64,000 bases of DNA from Actinomycetota bacterium (GCA_018268595.1 JAFDWH010000009.1:248001-312000), one strand, 5' to 3'; counted from the first letter of the stretch, positions 25,627-33,642 are shown. Numbers and translations are program-made. The notes: generated from the sequence alone by a model not told the origin.

Positions 25627-25681
25627 GCGAACACGCATCTGTCTCGGCGCGCGGCGCCGGGCGACCATGAGGAGGGAACTC

Positions 25682-25987
25682 ATGTCCGACCTGAACACAC
25701 CTGTCCTCGACTCGCTGTTGCAGATGAACGAGGGATCGCTGGAGCGGTCGGGGCTGGATCCCGAGCGCTTCATGCTCGTGCGGATCGCCGCGCTGGCGGC
25801 AACCGGCGCTCCGCCCGCGTCCTATCTCCTCAACCTCGAGATGGCGTCCGAGCTCGGACTGACCCTCGAGCAGGTGCAGGGCGTCCTCATCGGCATCGCC
25901 CCGGTGATCGGAAGCGCCCGGGTGGCCGCTGCCGGCAGCGCGATCTTCCAGTCGCTCGGGCTGGCGACGGCGATAGCCGAGGAATAG
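25682..25987 (+). CDS. Carboxymuconolactone decarboxylase-like (CMD) protein, 101 aa
   Basis: ATG 25682 with GGAGGG just upstream. The whole protein is one helical CMD/AhpD-like domain (FMLVRIAALAATGAPPASYLLNL...LTLEQVQGVLIGIAPVIG). The redox CxxC of AhpD is absent, so it is not a classical alkylhydroperoxidase. It could be a decarboxylase-like or structural variant. It is followed by the GH15 gene after 89 nt with a strong AGGAGG. Confidence 0.75.
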   Translation: MSDLNTPVLDSLLQMNEGSLERSGLDPERFMLVRIAALAATGAPPASYLLNLEMASELGLTLEQVQGVLIGIAPVIGSARVAAAGSAIFQSLGLATAIAEE

Positions 25988-26076: not shown

Positions 26077-27879
26077 ATGCGCATCGAGGACTACGGCTTC
26101 ATCGGAGACCTGCAGAGCGGCGCCTTGGTGGGGCGTGACGGGTCGGTCGACTGGCTCTGCATGCCGCGCTTCGACTCGGCGTCGTGCTTCGCGGCGCTCG
26201 TCGGCGACGAGCGCCATGGGCGCTGGCGCCTGGGCCCGGCGGGACCCACGACCGCGGTCACGCGACGCTACCGGCCCGGAACCCTGGTGCTCGAGACCGA
26301 CGTCGAGACCGCGGACGGCGCGGTGCGCGTGATCGACTTCATGCCTCGCCGCACCGAGGGCCCGCCGCGCCTGATGCGGATCGTCGAGGGCCTGCGGGGC
26401 CGGGTTCCGATGCATCTGGAGCTGTCGCTGCGCCCCGACTACGGGTCGATCACGCCGTGGGTCGAGGCAGCGCCCGACGGCGCGATCGCGACCGCGGGAC
26501 CTGACGCGTTCCGGCTCAGCAGCGCCGTGCCGCTGGAGCTGCACGACGGGACGTTCGACGCCGACTTCGTCATCCCGGAGGGCGGCCGCGAGCACTTCAC
26601 GCTCTGCTGGCACGCCTCCTACGAGGAGACGCCGCCGGTCGAGGACGCCGACTCGGCGCTTGCCCGCACCGAGGCGTGGTGGCAGTCGTGGAGCGACCGG
26701 TGCGCATACGACGGGCCGTACCGGGACGAGGTGCTGACCTCGCTGAAGACGCTCAAGGCGATGACGTACGAGCCGACCGGCGCGCTGGTCGCCGCGCCCA
26801 CGACGTCGCTGCCGGAGGACATCGGCGGCGTGCGCAACTGGGACTACCGCTACTGCTGGCTGCGCGACTCCGTGCTCGCGCTCGACGCGCTGCTCACCGC
26901 CGGGTACACCGACGAGGCGCTCGGCTTCCGTGATTGGATGGGGCGCGTCGGCACGGGCGAGCCGGCGAAGGCGCAGATCATGTACGGGATCCGCGGCGAG
27001 CGGCGGCTGACGGAGTTCGAGCTCTGCGAGCTCGCGGGCTACGAGGGCTCCAAGCCCGTCCGGGTCGGCAACGCGGCGTCCGAGCAGTTCCAGCTCGACG
27101 TCTACGGCGAGATCGTGAGCGCCTTCTATCTCGCCTCCGAGCGCGTCAGCTCGCTCGACGAGCGGGTCTGGCCGCGGTGGCGCACCCTGTTCGAGTACGT
27201 CGAGACGATCTGGCGCGAGCCGGACGACGGCATCTGGGAGTCGCGCGGGCCGCGCCGGCACTACACGTACTCCAAGGTCATGGCGTGGGTCGTGTTCGAC
27301 CGCGCCGTGCGGATCGTCGAGCGGTTCGGCGTGGACGCCCCGCTCGAGCGCTGGAAGCAGGTGCGCGACGAGATCCACCGCGAGGTCTGCGAGCGCGGAT
27401 ACGACTCCGAGCGACGGACGTTCACGCAGTACTACGGATCGCAGGAGCTCGACGCGAGCGTGCTCACGATCCCGATCGTGGGATTCCTGCCGGGCTCGGA
27501 CGAGCGCGTGACGGGGACGATCGACGCGGTCGCGCGCGAGCTCGGCCGGGACGGGTTCGTCTCGCGGTACTCGACGGCGCAGACCGACGACGGGCTGCCG
27601 GGCGACGAGGGGCAGTTCCTCGCATGCTCGTTCTGGCTGGTCAGCGCCCTGGCGCTCAACGGCCGCGTCGACGAGGCGCGGGCCCTGTTCGAGCGGCTCG
27701 TCGGCCTCAGAAACGACCTCGGCCTGCTGGCCGAGGAGTACGACGTCGGCCGCGGGCGGCAGGTCGGCAACTTCCCGCAGGCGTTCAGCCACCTCACGCT
27801 CATCGGCGCGGCGTACGCGATCGACGCAGCGCAAGCGGCCGCATCCGGTAATGGGCGCAAGGAGAAGGTGACGACATGA
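26077..27879 (+). CDS. Glycoside hydrolase family 15 (glucoamylase/trehalase type)
   Basis: 600 residues; ATG 26077 after AGGAGG. The start MRIEDYGFIGDLQSGALVGRD and GSVDWLCMPRFDS are hallmarks of the actinobacterial GH15 group that includes mycobacterial trehalase. The catalytic (alpha/alpha)6 domain shows NWDYRYCWLRDS (about 250), GSQELDASVL with a likely catalytic Glu, and EGQFLACSFW with the second Glu. There is no signal peptide, so it acts inside the cell and releases glucose from trehalose or alpha-glucans. Its stop overlaps the next start (ATGA). Trehalase versus glucoamylase cannot be decided from sequence. Confidence 0.88.
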   Translation: MRIEDYGFIGDLQSGALVGRDGSVDWLCMPRFDSASCFAALVGDERHGRWRLGPAGPTTAVTRRYRPGTLVLETDVETADGAVRVIDFMPRRTEGPPRLMRIVEGLRGRVPMHLELSLRPDYGSITPWVEAAPDGAIATAGPDAFRLSSAVPLELHDGTFDADFVIPEGGREHFTLCWHASYEETPPVEDADSALARTEAWWQSWSDRCAYDGPYRDEVLTSLKTLKAMTYEPTGALVAAPTTSLPEDIGGVRNWDYRYCWLRDSVLALDALLTAGYTDEALGFRDWMGRVGTGEPAKAQIMYGIRGERRLTEFELCELAGYEGSKPVRVGNAASEQFQLDVYGEIVSAFYLASERVSSLDERVWPRWRTLFEYVETIWREPDDGIWESRGPRRHYTYSKVMAWVVFDRAVRIVERFGVDAPLERWKQVRDEIHREVCERGYDSERRTFTQYYGSQELDASVLTIPIVGFLPGSDERVTGTIDAVARELGRDGFVSRYSTAQTDDGLPGDEGQFLACSFWLVSALALNGRVDEARALFERLVGLRNDLGLLAEEYDVGRGRQVGNFPQAFSHLTLIGAAYAIDAAQAAASGNGRKEKVTT

Positions 27880-29603
27880 AGACCGTGATCGTCGGCGGCG
27901 TCGCGGCAGGCGCCTCGACGGCGGCGCGCCTGCGGCGCCTCGACGAGTCCGCCGAGATCGTCGTGCTGGAGCGCGACCAGTACGTCTCGTTCGCGAACTG
28001 CGGCCTGCCGTACCACATCGGCGGCGTGATCCCGGAGCGCGACAGCCTGCTGCTGCAGACACCCGAGAGCCTGGGCGAGAGCCTCGCGCTCGACGTGCGC
28101 ACGGGACAGGAGGCGATCCGCATCGACCGCGACCACAAGGAGGTCGAGGTCCGCGACGTCGGCGACGGCCGCACCTACCGCGAGCCGTACGACAAGCTCG
28201 TGCTCTGCCTCGGCGCAGAGCCGATCCGTCCGCCGATCCCCGGCGCCGACGACCCGCGCGTCGACGTGCTGCGCAACATCCCCGACATGGACCGCATCAT
28301 CGCCCGCCTCGACGCGGGCGCCACGAGCGCCGTCGTCGTCGGTGGCAGCTACATCGGCTTGGAGCTCACCGAGGCCTTCCGCTCGCGCGGGCTGCGGACG
28401 ACCGTCGTGGAGCGGACCGAGCGGCTGATGCCGTGGCTCGACCCCGAGATGACGCGGCTGCTGGACTACGACGTCCGCACCCACGACGTCGACCTGCGCC
28501 TCGGCACGTCCGCCACCGCCATCAATGGTGACGGCGACAAGCTCGTCGTCGAGCTGTCGGACGGCACCTCGGTCGAGGCGGACATCGTCGTGATGGCCGC
28601 CGGGGCGCGTCCCAAGGTCGACCTCGCGCGCGCGGCGGGGATCGAGATCGGCCCGCGCGGGGGCATCGCGGTCGACGCGCAGATGCGCACGTCGGCAGCC
28701 GACGTCCTCGCGGCCGGCGACGCCGTCGAGACCGCGCACCTGCTGACCGGCGAGCCGACCCTCTCGATGCTCGCCGGGCCGGCGAACCGCGAGGGCCGGA
28801 TCGCCGCCGAGACGATCCACGGCCGTGACAGCGCGTACCGCGGAACGCAGGGCACGGCCGTGGTCAAGGTGTTCGAGATGACGGCGGGCGGCACCGGCAT
28901 GACCGAGTCGGAGCTCCGCGCCGCGGGCATCGACTTCCGCAAGGTCTACGACAACCATCCCGGGCACGCCGCGTATTACCCCGGCACCGAGCCGCTCTTC
29001 ATCAAGGTGCTGTTCGAGCCCGCGCAGGGCAGGCTGCTCGGTGCCCAGGTGCTGGGCTGGGATGGGGTCGACAAGCGCATCGACGTGTTCGCGACCGCGC
29101 TGCGCGCCGGCATGACCGTGTTCGACCTCGAGCACGTCGAGCTCGCCTATGCCCCGCCCTACGGCGCGGCCAAGGACCCGGTGAACATGGTCGGCTTCAT
29201 GGGCTCGAACCTGCTCCGCGGCGACATCCAGCTCTGGTATCCGGAGGACTATCCGGACTGCGCGCAGCGCGTGACGATCCTCGACACGCGCACGGAGGCG
29301 GAGTACGCGCATTGGCACGTGCCGGAGGCCATCCTCATCCCCTACACCGAGCTGCGGGAGCGGCTCGACGAGGTGCCGCGAGAGAAGCCGGTCTATACGT
29401 ACTGCCGCTCCGGCTTCCGCAGCTATATCGCCTACTGCGTGCTCAAGCAGCACGGCTGGGACGTCGCGTGGCTGACCGGAGGCATGATGATGTTCCACGG
29501 CTTCCACCGCACGCCGCTCAAGGTCGGCAAGGGCGGCATGCCCGTGGTGGCCCACGCCGAGCACGTGCTCGCCCGGACGCCGCGGGCCGTCGAGCATGTC
29601 TGA
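27876..29603 (+). CDS. CoA-disulfide reductase-like FAD enzyme fused to rhodanese
   Basis: 575 residues coupled to GH15 by ATGA. N-terminal FAD motif VIVGGVAAGASTAARLRR, active-site Cys42 in SFANCGLPYHIGG (single-cysteine CoADR type), NAD motif VVVGGSYIGLELTEAF (about 150), dimerisation domain, and a C-terminal rhodanese domain (about 467-575) with Cys near 509 in YCRSGFRSY. Such fusions reduce CoA disulfide, polysulfide or persulfide using NAD(P)H. The neighbouring sugar-oxidising enzymes could supply the reductant. Exact substrate unknown. Confidence 0.88.
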   Translation: MKTVIVGGVAAGASTAARLRRLDESAEIVVLERDQYVSFANCGLPYHIGGVIPERDSLLLQTPESLGESLALDVRTGQEAIRIDRDHKEVEVRDVGDGRTYREPYDKLVLCLGAEPIRPPIPGADDPRVDVLRNIPDMDRIIARLDAGATSAVVVGGSYIGLELTEAFRSRGLRTTVVERTERLMPWLDPEMTRLLDYDVRTHDVDLRLGTSATAINGDGDKLVVELSDGTSVEADIVVMAAGARPKVDLARAAGIEIGPRGGIAVDAQMRTSAADVLAAGDAVETAHLLTGEPTLSMLAGPANREGRIAAETIHGRDSAYRGTQGTAVVKVFEMTAGGTGMTESELRAAGIDFRKVYDNHPGHAAYYPGTEPLFIKVLFEPAQGRLLGAQVLGWDGVDKRIDVFATALRAGMTVFDLEHVELAYAPPYGAAKDPVNMVGFMGSNLLRGDIQLWYPEDYPDCAQRVTILDTRTEAEYAHWHVPEAILIPYTELRERLDEVPREKPVYTYCRSGFRSYIAYCVLKQHGWDVAWLTGGMMMFHGFHRTPLKVGKGGMPVVAHAEHVLARTPRAVEHV

Positions 29604-30531
29604 CGCGGCCGTCGAGGTCGCGCTGCACGTCCGCGCCGAGCACGGCGAGGGCCCGCTGTGGGACGCCGCGACGGCGCGCCTGTGGTGGGTCGACATCGCC
29701 GCCGAGCGCGTGCACTGCTTCGATCCGCAGTCCGGCGAGGACAGCTCGTGGCGCACCGGCGGGCAGCCGGGCGGCGTGGTGCTCGGGGCGAGCGGCGACC
29801 CGTTGGTGGCGATGCCGGACGGCCTGGCGACGCTCGATCGCGCCACCGGCGAGCTGCGGATGTGCGTTCCGATCGAGCCGGACCGGACCGAGAACCGCGC
29901 CAACGACGTCAAGGTCGACGCTCGGGGACGTCCCTGGGTCGGCACGATGGCGTTCGACAAGCGGGCGGAGAACGCGGCCCTCTACCGCGTCGACGGCGAC
30001 CGCGCGACCTGCGTCGTGAGCGGCCTGACGATCTCCAACGGGCCCGCGTTCGACGAGTCGCGCGGCCGCCTGTACCTCGCCGACACCGCGCTGTGCGTCG
30101 TCGACCTCTTCGACTTCGACGACGTCACGGGTGCGGTCGCGAATCGCCGGCGCTTCCTCGATCTCAGCGATGCGGAGCTGTGGCCGGACGGCATGACCGT
30201 CGACCGCGACGGCATGCTGTGGGTCGCGCTCGGGCGAGCGGGAGCCGTGCACCGCTACCGCCCCGACGGGGCGCTGGACGGCGTGGTCGCACTGCCCACG
30301 TCGAATCCCACCTCGGTGGCCTTCGGCGGCGGCGACGGCGGCGACCTCTACATCACGACGTCGTGGGTCGACTGCGAGCGGCGCGACGAGGAGCCGCTGG
30401 CCGGGGCGATCTTCCGCTGCCGCCCCGGGGCGTCGGCCCGTCCGTCGCCCCGCTGCACGTCCCTTGCCCTCGATCGGAGAAAGGCAGCGCTCGATGATCC
30501 AGCGCATGGTCCTGTTCGGAGCATCCGGTGA
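29596..30531 (+). CDS. SMP-30/gluconolactonase-family lactonase
   Basis: 311 residues from ATG 29596, overlapping the previous gene by 8 nt. Six-bladed propeller family with metal-site residues: Glu in AEHGEGPLW, Asn in ENRANDVKVD, Asn in SNGPAFD, Asp in WPDGMTVD. These enzymes open sugar lactones such as D-glucono-1,5-lactone. The last ~20 residues run past the usual family end and overlap the start of the next gene by 38 nt. Its place before a G6PDH-like gene suggests hydrolysis of the lactone that enzyme makes. Confidence 0.85.
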   Translation: MSDAAVEVALHVRAEHGEGPLWDAATARLWWVDIAAERVHCFDPQSGEDSSWRTGGQPGGVVLGASGDPLVAMPDGLATLDRATGELRMCVPIEPDRTENRANDVKVDARGRPWVGTMAFDKRAENAALYRVDGDRATCVVSGLTISNGPAFDESRGRLYLADTALCVVDLFDFDDVTGAVANRRRFLDLSDAELWPDGMTVDRDGMLWVALGRAGAVHRYRPDGALDGVVALPTSNPTSVAFGGGDGGDLYITTSWVDCERRDEEPLAGAIFRCRPGASARPSPRCTSLALDRRKAALDDPAHGPVRSIR

Positions 30532-31855
30532 CCTGACCAGCCGCCTGCTGATGCCGGCGCTCGCCCAGCTCGCCGAGGCCGAGCTGCTGCCGCCGGGCTT
30601 CACGATCGTCGGCTCCGCAGTCACCGACTGGTCGACCGACGACTTCCGCCAGCACATCGCCGGCGCCTTGGACGAGCACGCGCCCGTCGCGCCGACCGCG
30701 CGCGACGCCGTCGTGAGGATGCTGGGCTTCCAGCCCGCCGACGTGACGAGGCCGGAGGACGTGGGGCGGCTGATCGGCGACGGTCATCCGGACACGCTCG
30801 TCTACCTGGCACTGCCCCCGGGCCTGCTCACGAAGGTGCTGCCGGCCCTGGCGCAAGCGCAGCTCACGGCCTCGGACGCGGTCGCGGTCGAGAAGCCCTT
30901 CGGCACCGATCTCGCCTCGGCGCACCACCTCAACGAGCTGCTCCGCATCGAGCTGCCGGAGCCGACGATCTTCCGCATCGACCACTTCCTGTCCGACGAG
31001 CTCGTGCGCCGCGTCATCGTCCTGCGGTTCCTCAACCGCATCTTCGAGCCGATCCTGAATGCCGAGCACGTGGAGCATGTGGACATCAGCTGGCTGGAGA
31101 GCCTGGCGCTCGAAGGCCGCGCCTCCTACTACGACGGCGCCGGCGCACTGAAGGACATGGTCCAGAACCACCTCATGGAGGCCATGGCGCTGGTCCTCAT
31201 GGAGCAGCCGGCCCGGGTCGACGCCGACTCGTTCCGCTCGGTGCGCGTGGAGGCGCTCCGAGCGGTCGCCACGCCGCAGGCGGAGCGAATGCGCACCGAC
31301 ACAGTCCGTGCCCGGTACGCCGCGGGCACGATCGAGTCCCGCCAGATCCCGTCGTACGTGGACGAGGCCGGAGTCGATCCCGCACGCGACACCGAGACCT
31401 ACGCGGCGCTCACCCTCGAGGTCGAGAATCCGCGCTGGGCCGGAGTTCCGTTCAGCCTGCGCTCGGGCAAGGCCCTCGCGCAGGACTCGGCCGAGATCGC
31501 GATCCACTTCCGCCCGCTGCCCCGCTACCTGCTCGACCGCTGGCCGGGCGTCGAGCCGAACGTGCTCAGGGTCGGCCTTACGGAACCCTACGTGCACCTG
31601 GCCACGACGCTCAACGGTCCCGAGCGCACCGTCGAGAACCGGAAGCTCGAGGTGCGCTCGACGCCGCCGCGGCTGACCGCGTACGCGCACCTGCTCGGGC
31701 AGATGCTCAGAAGCGACCCGATGCTGTTCATCCGGGGGGACGAGGCCGAGGAGGCGTGGCGGATCATCGACCCGGTGGCGAATGCGTGGGCGGCAGGCGA
31801 GGTCCCGATGCAGGAGTACCCAGCCGGGGGCGTTCCTCCCGGGCCCGCGCTCTGA
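30494..31855 (+). CDS. Glucose-6-phosphate dehydrogenase-like enzyme with altered phosphate site
   Basis: 453 residues from ATG 30494 with GGAGAAAGG upstream. NADP motif GASGDLT (9-15), EKPFG (133-137), and the catalytic loop YYDGAGALKDMVQNH with the base histidine are intact. The substrate loop reads RIDHFLSDE (161-169) where G6PDH has RIDHYLGKE: the lysine that holds the 6-phosphate is Asp168 and the tyrosine is Phe165. RSGKAL is kept. It is therefore an oxidoreductase of the family, but unphosphorylated glucose or another sugar may be the substrate. It ends the GH15-CoADR-SMP30 operon. Confidence 0.85.
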   Translation: MIQRMVLFGASGDLTSRLLMPALAQLAEAELLPPGFTIVGSAVTDWSTDDFRQHIAGALDEHAPVAPTARDAVVRMLGFQPADVTRPEDVGRLIGDGHPDTLVYLALPPGLLTKVLPALAQAQLTASDAVAVEKPFGTDLASAHHLNELLRIELPEPTIFRIDHFLSDELVRRVIVLRFLNRIFEPILNAEHVEHVDISWLESLALEGRASYYDGAGALKDMVQNHLMEAMALVLMEQPARVDADSFRSVRVEALRAVATPQAERMRTDTVRARYAAGTIESRQIPSYVDEAGVDPARDTETYAALTLEVENPRWAGVPFSLRSGKALAQDSAEIAIHFRPLPRYLLDRWPGVEPNVLRVGLTEPYVHLATTLNGPERTVENRKLEVRSTPPRLTAYAHLLGQMLRSDPMLFIRGDEAEEAWRIIDPVANAWAAGEVPMQEYPAGGVPPGPAL

Positions 31856-32133
31856 CATCCAGCGATCGGCCTGGATCTGCCACCCGAGCCGAGGCGGCGC
31901 GGCGGTGGCGCCTGCCACATGGAAGTCTTGCTGCGTACGAGCGGTTGCAACTCCTCCCGCCGCCGCGATACGAACCGGAACTCCGATTCGGGTTCCGCAC
32001 GATACGGAGGGTGGATTCCGTCTGTGCGTCGCCGACTGGCGCCGCTACCTCGACCTGCTGCTCGACGCTCTGCGCCCGCGACCGTGAGCGGATTCTCATC
32101 CGCGCGTTAGGCGCGGCGGCAACACTCCCGCCC
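31856..32133. other. Gap between the G6PDH-like and ASST genes
   Basis: 278 bp without a supportable gene. One short frame ending at 32087 reads GGFRLCVADWRRYLDLLLDAL, which could be a gene remnant, but it has no start or upstream family sequence. No hairpin or promoter stands out. Confidence 0.35.
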
Positions 32134-33642
32134 GTGGACCGCCGAACGGGGACCTCGACGCCCGCGCGCGCGCACCGGCGCGCATGGATCGCCGCCGCGC
32201 TGCTGCTCGCGCTCGCCGCCGGCGGCCTCGCCCTCTGGCTCGCGCTGCGCGACGCCTCCGGCCAGCCCGGACCGACCGCCGACGACGTGCTGCGCTTCCA
32301 CTCGCAGCCCGGGCTCGACCCCGACCGCGTCCGCGTCACGGTGCCCGCGCGCGGACGCACGGCGCCGGGCTACGTCTTCCTCGCCGTCAAGCGCGGACCG
32401 GGGCAGGACGGCCCGCAGATCGTCGACGACCGCGGCCGCGTCGTGTGGTTCCGCCCGACGCCGCCGCACCTCGCGGCGACCGGCTTCCGCGTGCAGCGCT
32501 ACAGAGCACAGCCCGTCCTCACGTGGTGGCAGGGCCGCACGAGATACGGCCACGGGATGGGCGAGTACGTGATCCTCGACCGCCACTACCGGCAGGTCGC
32601 GGTCGTGCGCGCCGGGAACGGCTACATGGGCGACCACCACGAGTTCCAGCTGACCCCGCGCGGGACCGCCTACCTGTCCGTGTACGCGCCGCGCCGGATG
32701 GACCTGCGCGCCGTCGGCGGCCCGCGCGACGGCACGATCTTCGAGTCGATCGTGCAGGAGGTCGACGTCGCCAGCGGGCGCGTCGTGTGGGAGTGGCACA
32801 GCGCCGACCACCTGCCCGTGACCGAGGGCGTCACGCCGCCCAAGAGCGGGACGCCGCACGACTACTTCCACGTCAACGCGGTCGACGACGACGGCCCCGG
32901 CCGGCTGCTGATCAGCGCGCGCAACATGCACGCGGTCTACGAGGTCGACAAGCGCAGCGGCCGCGTCCTGTGGCGCCTCGGCGGCAAGCACAGCGACTTC
33001 CGCATGGGCCCGGGCGCGCGCTTCGCCTTCCAGCACGACGCCGAGCGCCTGCCCGACGGGACGATCTCGCTGTTCGACAACGAGGCGACGCCGGCGCAGG
33101 CCGACCAGTCGCGCGGGCTCGTGCTGCGGCTCGACATGCGCACGAGAGTCGCGCAGCTCGTGCGCCAGTACAGACACCCCGACAAGCTGCTCGCGGGCGC
33201 CGAGGGCAACGTGCAGACGCTGCCCGACGGCCACGTCCTGATCGGCTGGGGACCGCAGCGGCACATCTCCGAGTTCAGCCGCGACGGGCGCCTGCTGTTC
33301 GACCTCGTCGTCCCGCCCGGCTCCGACAGCTACCAGGCGTACCGCTACCCGTGGCACGGCGAGCCGCTCGACCGCCCGGCGCTCGCCGCCCGCCGCCCCG
33401 CCGGCGCGCGGCAGGTGACGGCGTGGGCGAGCTGGAACGGCGCGACCGCGCTGCGCGGCTGGCAGCTGCTCGCCGGCGACGATCCCAACGCGCTCGTCCC
33501 GCTCGGCGCCCCGGTCCCGCGGCGCGACTTCGAGACGACGCTGCGCGCCCGCACCGCCGCGCGCTACGTCGCGGTCGCCGCGCTCGACGCGCGCGGCCGG
33601 CAGATCGGCGAGTCGCGGGCGGTCGCGCCGGCGGCGCGCTGA
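32134..33642 (+). CDS. Arylsulfotransferase-family (ASST) membrane or exported protein
   Basis: 502 residues from GTG 32134. One N-terminal hydrophobic segment (about 15-36), then a propeller-type domain with RYGHGMGEYVILDRHYR, GDHHEFQLTP, PHDYFHVNAVD, WRLGGKHSDF and FQHDAERLPDGTISLFDNE, the histidine-rich signature of arylsulfotransferase families (PF14269/PF05935). A short beta-rich C-terminal domain follows. The family moves sulfate between phenolic compounds; substrate is unknown. It converges with the histidine kinase gene, with stops 16 nt apart. Confidence 0.82.
   Translation: MDRRTGTSTPARAHRRAWIAAALLLALAAGGLALWLALRDASGQPGPTADDVLRFHSQPGLDPDRVRVTVPARGRTAPGYVFLAVKRGPGQDGPQIVDDRGRVVWFRPTPPHLAATGFRVQRYRAQPVLTWWQGRTRYGHGMGEYVILDRHYRQVAVVRAGNGYMGDHHEFQLTPRGTAYLSVYAPRRMDLRAVGGPRDGTIFESIVQEVDVASGRVVWEWHSADHLPVTEGVTPPKSGTPHDYFHVNAVDDDGPGRLLISARNMHAVYEVDKRSGRVLWRLGGKHSDFRMGPGARFAFQHDAERLPDGTISLFDNEATPAQADQSRGLVLRLDMRTRVAQLVRQYRHPDKLLAGAEGNVQTLPDGHVLIGWGPQRHISEFSRDGRLLFDLVVPPGSDSYQAYRYPWHGEPLDRPALAARRPAGARQVTAWASWNGATALRGWQLLAGDDPNALVPLGAPVPRRDFETTLRARTAARYVAVAALDARGRQIGESRAVAPAAR

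Follow-up and report, generated by a model that had tools for sequence, protein, structure and literature searches.

A glucose-6-phosphate dehydrogenase-like protein with aspartate at the phosphate-binding lysine, and the third actinobacterial clade to which it belongs

What does a protein of the glucose-6-phosphate dehydrogenase (G6PDH) family act upon when the lysine that should hold the phosphate of its substrate has become an aspartate? The question is raised by a gene in a stretch of 64,000 nt from an Actinomycetota bacterium (GCA_018268595.1 JAFDWH010000009.1:248001-312000), called here the window, within which all positions are counted. A preliminary description of the window proposed that the gene and its neighbors convert trehalose or glucan to glucose and then to gluconate, yielding NADPH, possibly for a reductase encoded alongside. 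The loss of the phosphate lysine, the presence of extra zwf genes and the context of related genes bear that interpretation out in part, while the parts concerning NADPH, its use by the reductase, the route to gluconate and the operon as a unit fare less well.

The gene, its neighbors, and the rest of the genome

The features of the locus are collected in Table 1. For the G6PDH-like gene, the ATG at 30494, with GGAGAAAGG ahead of it, is a likelier start than the TTG at 30464 from which the open frame extends. The neighbors are what they were first taken to be: an SMP-30 protein (PF08450), a GH15 enzyme (380 bits against the trehalase model NF041084, below its cut-off of 820) and a CoA-disulfide-reductase-like (CDR-like) protein with a rhodanese domain. 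Since the GH15 and CDR-like genes overlap by 4 bp, the CDR-like and SMP-30 genes by 8 bp and the SMP-30 and G6PDH-like genes by 38 bp, the four genes look like one operon, to go by their arrangement. The co-directional gene upstream, encoding a carboxymuconolactone-decarboxylase-family (CMD) protein, ends 89 bp ahead of the GH15 gene, and its membership in the operon is uncertain.

Table 1. Genes and phosphate-site features of the locus, by position in the window
Feature	Position	Strand	Basis
Carboxymuconolactone-decarboxylase-family (CMD) protein	25667..25987	+	PF02627
GH15 trehalase-like glycoside hydrolase	26077..27879	+	PF00723 299 bits, PF19291 67 bits
CoA-disulfide-reductase-like flavoprotein, C-terminal rhodanese domain	27876..29603	+	Pfam; TIGR03385 440 bits, below cut-off 578.8
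SMP-30/gluconolactonase-family protein	29596..30531	+	PF08450 240.7 bits
G6PDH-like dehydrogenase, 453 aa	30494..31855	+	PF00479 124 bits, PF02781 255 bits
Loop RIDHFLSDE: D177, H178 kept; Y179F, G181S, K182D	30974..31000	+	alignment to 1dpg 175-183
Asp codon at 182, GAC	30995-30997	+	read from ORF
L184 V185 R186 R187 (Leuconostoc, M V Q N)	31001..31012	+	column table of alignment
Codon of catalytic base H240, in KDMVQNHL	31169..31171	+	alignment
K338 kept; K343D (GAC 31484-31486); residue 344 Ser	31469..31489	+	alignment

The possibility of a conserved GH15-CDR-SMP30-G6PDH operon was considered and rejected. In no searched locus besides the window does an SMP-30 gene lie next to the G6PDH-like gene, and a CDR-like gene lies near just one other (L173, on the opposite strand, 4 kb away). 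The gene of the closest ortholog (L206, described below) stands alone among unrelated genes, with none of the window's neighbors.

The same genome has two ordinary G6PDH genes, both with DHYLGKE, outside the window. Downstream of one (L001) lie genes for OpcA-like and Pgl-like proteins; the other (L002) adjoins a gnd-like gene. The second, normal zwf on whose existence the preliminary description had thought to check is therefore present twice over. With two ordinary copies at hand, a redundant third G6PDH is unlikely, and the notion that the window protein is the sole G6PDH of the genome, and so bound to use glucose-6-phosphate (G6P), is ruled out.

Phosphate-site and catalytic residues

Residues are numbered as in the G6PDH of Leuconostoc (1dpg), whose K182 corresponds to human K205, a residue that contacts G6P in the structure 2BHL (PMC10556143) and has been described as critical to G6P binding (PMC12429737). 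Residues 175-183 of 1dpg read RIDHYLGKE, and the corresponding block of the window protein aligns without gaps to solved G6PDHs, so K182 falls exactly on the aspartate. The observation that the phosphate lysine had been replaced is confirmed by this alignment with known structures and is stronger than first stated: K343, found within GKRLAAKQT of 1dpg, is also aspartate in the window protein (GKALAQDSA).

Chance does not explain the aspartate at 182, as the position is lysine in 96 of 97 rows of ordinary G6PDHs, the only row with aspartate (L055) being the window protein itself. A single read error is excluded because it takes at least two base changes to pass from lysine to GAC. That two-base change, the additional change at K343 and the identity of the ortholog at both positions together rule out sequencing error and chance.

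The catalytic residues are all in place. D177, H178, K148, D235, H240, and K338 are kept, so that the D177/H240 dyad is present together with K148, and the catalytic histidine (H240) remains, as had been claimed. The window protein and its ortholog also share R186 and R187, at sites occupied in other proteins by Gln or Leu and by Asn, respectively, and both have Ser at 344, where the clade described below has Arg. Arg186 sits one helical turn from residue 182, and it could hold phosphate or merely pair with Asp182.

The ortholog is 78% identical to the window protein and comes from another genus of the same family (genome G713), 232 genomes of the order having been searched. It carries RIDHFLSDE and GKALEVDSAE, thus aspartate at both 182 and 343. 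Between the two genes, dN is 0.15 and dS is 0.70, and this ratio of about 0.2, along with the retention of both aspartates, points to a variant that has been maintained and rules out a decaying pseudogene. The base composition of the window gene is coding-like. The AlphaFold2 model of the window protein is confident (pLDDT 89.1, pTM 0.88), and its top structural matches are G6PDHs exclusively (VIA-align Z about 40 over 430-440 residues). Given the maintenance of the ortholog and this G6PDH-like model, the window protein is most likely a working enzyme.

Its N- and C-terminal G6PDH domains span the whole length, both PF00479 and PF02781 scoring above their cut-offs. With bacterial and human G6PDHs (Zwf; PF00479/PF02781; 1dpg, 2bhl) it has in common the whole fold, the dinucleotide loop, and D177, H178, K148, H240, and K338. 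It differs from them by K182D, K343D, Y179F, and Arg186/187, by the lack of pgl, opcA, and gnd in its surroundings, and by its score against TIGR00871 (zwf), 372.1 bits, which is below the cut-off of 400.6 (the ortholog scores 361.5). It does pass the curated cut-off of 428 for NF009492 (PRK12853.1-3), with 472.1 bits (441 for the ortholog). That family bears the name glucose-6-phosphate dehydrogenase, but it is a sequence family and no proof of function; ordinary zwf genes pass as well, and among its best-scoring members K182 is not conserved.

A third actinobacterial clade

In trees the window protein is joined by 65-71 other sequences, most of them from actinobacteria, while the zwf1 and zwf2 types fall elsewhere. 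The branch has an SH-aLRT of 100 in both trees (72 rows on one side in one, 66 rows in the other), and it defines what we call in this analysis the third actinobacterial G6PDH-like clade. Streptomyces, Nocardia, Geodermatophilus, relatives of Rubrobacter, Arthrobacter, and others are represented. No characterized enzyme of the clade was found in the literature; one genomics paper records only that actinobacteria have more than one type of Zwf, listing several (PMC5023230). The clade is an overlooked third branch whose members are labeled in databases as ordinary G6PDHs, and on that account it merits biochemical test.

Throughout the clade, residue 179 is Phe in place of Tyr. Residue 182 is far more variable. 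Of 66 rows, 33 have a basic residue there (22 Lys, 11 Arg) and the remaining 33 a different one (M 15, L 6, W 5, N 3, also D, E, S, and Y), and on the tree there have been at least 11 switches between K/R and other states.

The clade is also set apart by its gene context. When flanks of about 8 kb on each side (contig permitting) were scanned for pgl, opcA, or gnd, none of 56 distinct clade loci had any of the three, whereas 36 of the 41 zwf loci outside the clade did. Of 61 clade loci, 26 have a gene for GH15, GH65, or gluconokinase next to the G6PDH-like gene. One example is Streptomyces sp. F001 (L097), with the order GH15, G6PDH-like (DHFLAMT, with Met at 182), and gluconokinase, the last scoring 173.7 bits against TIGR01313 (cut-off 113.75). 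Another operon (L181), whose G6PDH-like protein has Trp at 182, contains genes for a sugar transporter, beta-phosphoglucomutase-like, ROK-glucokinase-like, and GH65 proteins, an arylformamidase-family hydrolase, a KDG-kinase-like protein, and KDPG aldolase. Both contexts are consistent with free glucose being oxidized to gluconate and then converted to 6-phosphogluconate or KDPG, although in the second operon G6P could arise as well, by way of the ROK-glucokinase-like and beta-phosphoglucomutase-like proteins. GH15 and GntK genes are likewise found near ordinary zwf genes (DHYLGKE) in Bradyrhizobium. A tie between glycosidase adjacency and the loss of K/R at 182 (Fisher p 0.02, raw) vanishes in independent pairs on the tree. 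Adjacency is a trait of the clade and is not linked to the loss of K182.

Substrate, cofactor, and product

With K182 and K343 both exchanged for aspartate and the catalytic residues kept, the substrate is probably a sugar without phosphate. Glucose is the best guess from residues and genomic context: clade loci lie away from pgl, opcA, and gnd, many of them beside GH15 or GH65 and some beside gluconokinase, which makes free glucose the likeliest candidate. The protein would then be an aldose 1-dehydrogenase, NAD(P)-dependent and descended from G6PDH. It would take an unphosphorylated sugar, most likely beta-D-glucose released by the adjacent GH15 enzyme, to the 1,5-lactone, and the SMP-30 protein encoded next to it would open the lactone ring to give the aldonate. 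By homology, His240, with Asp177 as partner, would remove the proton from the C1-OH, and NAD(P)+ would accept the hydride. At the free C6-OH side, binding would fall to Asp182 and Asp343, whose charge would disfavor a 6-phosphate. Of the explanations considered, activity of the window enzyme on free glucose is the strongest, and we judge it to have an even chance of being right.

The same idea may be extended, more tentatively and with the balance somewhat against it, to the whole third clade. Its members would be free-glucose (aldose) dehydrogenases, acting on unphosphorylated glucose derived from trehalose or glucan, which would pass through lactone and gluconate to 6-phosphogluconate or KDPG, and the window protein and its ortholog would be the most committed branch. 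If so, a textbook family has, within actinobacteria, exchanged its sugar phosphate substrate for an unphosphorylated sugar, at a lysine deemed essential; hundreds of genes annotated as G6PDH, and counted as such in metabolic models, act otherwise; and trehalose or glycogen can be turned into gluconate with no ATP spent on glucose ahead of its oxidation.

Or perhaps the enzyme still uses a sugar phosphate, the clamp having shifted from K182 and K343 to other basic residues, a possibility we consider unlikely but deserving of some weight. Residue 344 is Arg in 57 of the 66 clade rows (Arg or Lys in 59), where K343 is often lost, and at P0001 position 284 Arg replaces Gln in 97% of the clade. In the window protein, the Arg at P0001 position 284 might serve, or Arg186 and Arg187, which were gained together with Asp182 in the window protein and its ortholog and could stand in for Lys182. 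His178, a phosphate contact (PMC6471386), is kept, and the name given by NCBI to NF009492 also speaks for G6P. Indeed, with Lys or Arg at 182 in 33 of 66 rows and at 344 in 59, phosphate binding may persist in a large part of the clade. The window protein and its ortholog, however, lack R344 too and present the opposite charge at both 182 and 343, and pgl, opcA, and gnd are missing from the surroundings of clade loci. Furthermore, no SMP-30 lactonase is known to act on phosphogluconolactone.

If the substrate is unphosphorylated, it need not be glucose, and could be another hexose, a pentose, a disaccharide (trehalose, maltose), or an amino sugar drawn by the two aspartates. A pair of acidic residues near C6 would accommodate hydroxyl or amine groups, the diversity at residue 182 (M, L, W, N, Y, D) looks as though substrates differed, and GH15 may use trehalose or other glucans. 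Yet GH15 and GH65 yield glucose or glucose-1-phosphate, and the gluconokinase in some clusters indicates gluconate, so we think a sugar other than glucose rather improbable. Least probable of all is a non-catalytic or regulatory paralog, or a relic, for although only one close ortholog was found and the distribution is patchy (six other searched genomes of the window's genus lack it), every catalytic residue is kept, dN/dS is about 0.2, the composition is coding-like, and the fold is confident.

Human H6PD (8em2, named GDH/6PGL in the PDB) oxidizes free glucose as well as G6P. It has the G6PDH fold in common with the window protein, but it keeps RVDHYLGKQ and GKALDERVG (Lys at 182, Arg at 343) and is fused to a 6PGL domain.

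What is observed for the window protein is its residues and fold, their conservation in the ortholog, the order of the genes, and a separate clade with its own gene context; from these we infer the substrate, the cofactor, the product, and any joint action of the four genes. In E. coli G6PDH, K18 and R50 confer a preference for NADP that is lost in the double alanine mutant (PMC4807051). The NADP motif said to remain in the window protein does so in part: the dinucleotide loop GASGDL is kept, but the NADP-selecting residues are replaced, K18 by Ser and R50 by Val. The ortholog has Arg at the R50 site. With Val in place of the NADP-selecting Arg, the output of NADPH is doubtful, and its proposed production finds no support in the sequence. 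Nor does its use by the CoA-disulfide reductase, a claim that had only gene order behind it.

The proposed passage of trehalose or glucan through glucose to gluconate is favored by the loss of the lysine and by the context of the clade, but against it, no GntK-type gluconokinase was found in the window genome, and the sole FGGY kinase there is a glycerol kinase. Judged by score, both IlvD/EDD-family proteins of the genome are dihydroxy-acid dehydratases rather than edd. The four-gene NADPH pathway is weakly supported. The reaction and pathway considered here have an established parallel in methanotrophs, where a glucose 1-dehydrogenase of the SDR type and gluconate kinase carry glucose through gluconolactone and gluconate to 6-phosphogluconate (PMC8062543). 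The SDR enzyme (EC 1.1.1.47) is unrelated in fold to the window dehydrogenase, which is of the G6PDH family.

Residue 182 and gene context in other loci

Outside the third clade, the actinobacterial branch of G6PDH-like proteins that includes the window protein, Lys182 (Leuconostoc numbering) was lost in one case: a gnd-type (zwf1-like) G6PDH (L085) with Glu at this position in the loop RIDHFVGEE. At three Bradyrhizobium zwf loci (L135, L149, and L164), a gluconokinase gene and a GH15 gene lie within about 3 kb of zwf, and the enzyme is ordinary, with DHYLGKE. The third-clade protein from Archangium has Tyr at residue 182, and its gene is clustered with those encoding a PF04199-like hydrolase, GH15, and a gluconokinase-like protein. 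Residue 182 is Trp in the G6PDH-like protein of a compact operon whose carriers include Rubrobacteraceae (L093/L186) and which also encodes MFS, beta-PGM-like, ROK, GH65, arylformamidase-like, and KDG-kinase-like proteins and KDPG aldolase. The operon looks like a semi-phosphorylative Entner-Doudoroff route.

Features of the window and of compared loci
Feature	Location	Strand	Remark
SMP-30 C-terminal tail, unusual, ~28 residues	window 30440-30531	+	
Arylsulfotransferase (ASST)-like protein gene	window 31756-33642	+	directly downstream of G6PDH-like gene
SDR gene near second SMP-30 gene	L217 (G000:C11:24000-42000)		elsewhere in window genome
Archangium (myxobacterial MAG) gene cluster	L096:5000-10000		
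Compact sugar operon	L181:1410-12057	+	similar in L184, L180, L093/L186

A second SMP-30 locus

The SDR scores above the NCBIfam cut-off for glucose 1-dehydrogenase. Nearby, besides the second SMP-30 gene, are those of an IlvD-like dehydratase and a 2-hydroxyacid dehydrogenase, a group that perhaps constitutes an ordinary non-phosphorylative sugar pathway.

Genes flanking the G6PDH-like gene

The region encoding the SMP-30 tail extends 38 bp into the G6PDH-like gene, possibly through a frameshift or possibly as translational coupling. At the other end, the annotated start of the ASST-like ORF falls inside the G6PDH-like gene; the true start is probably later. The ASST-like protein has a hydrophobic stretch at its N-terminal end.
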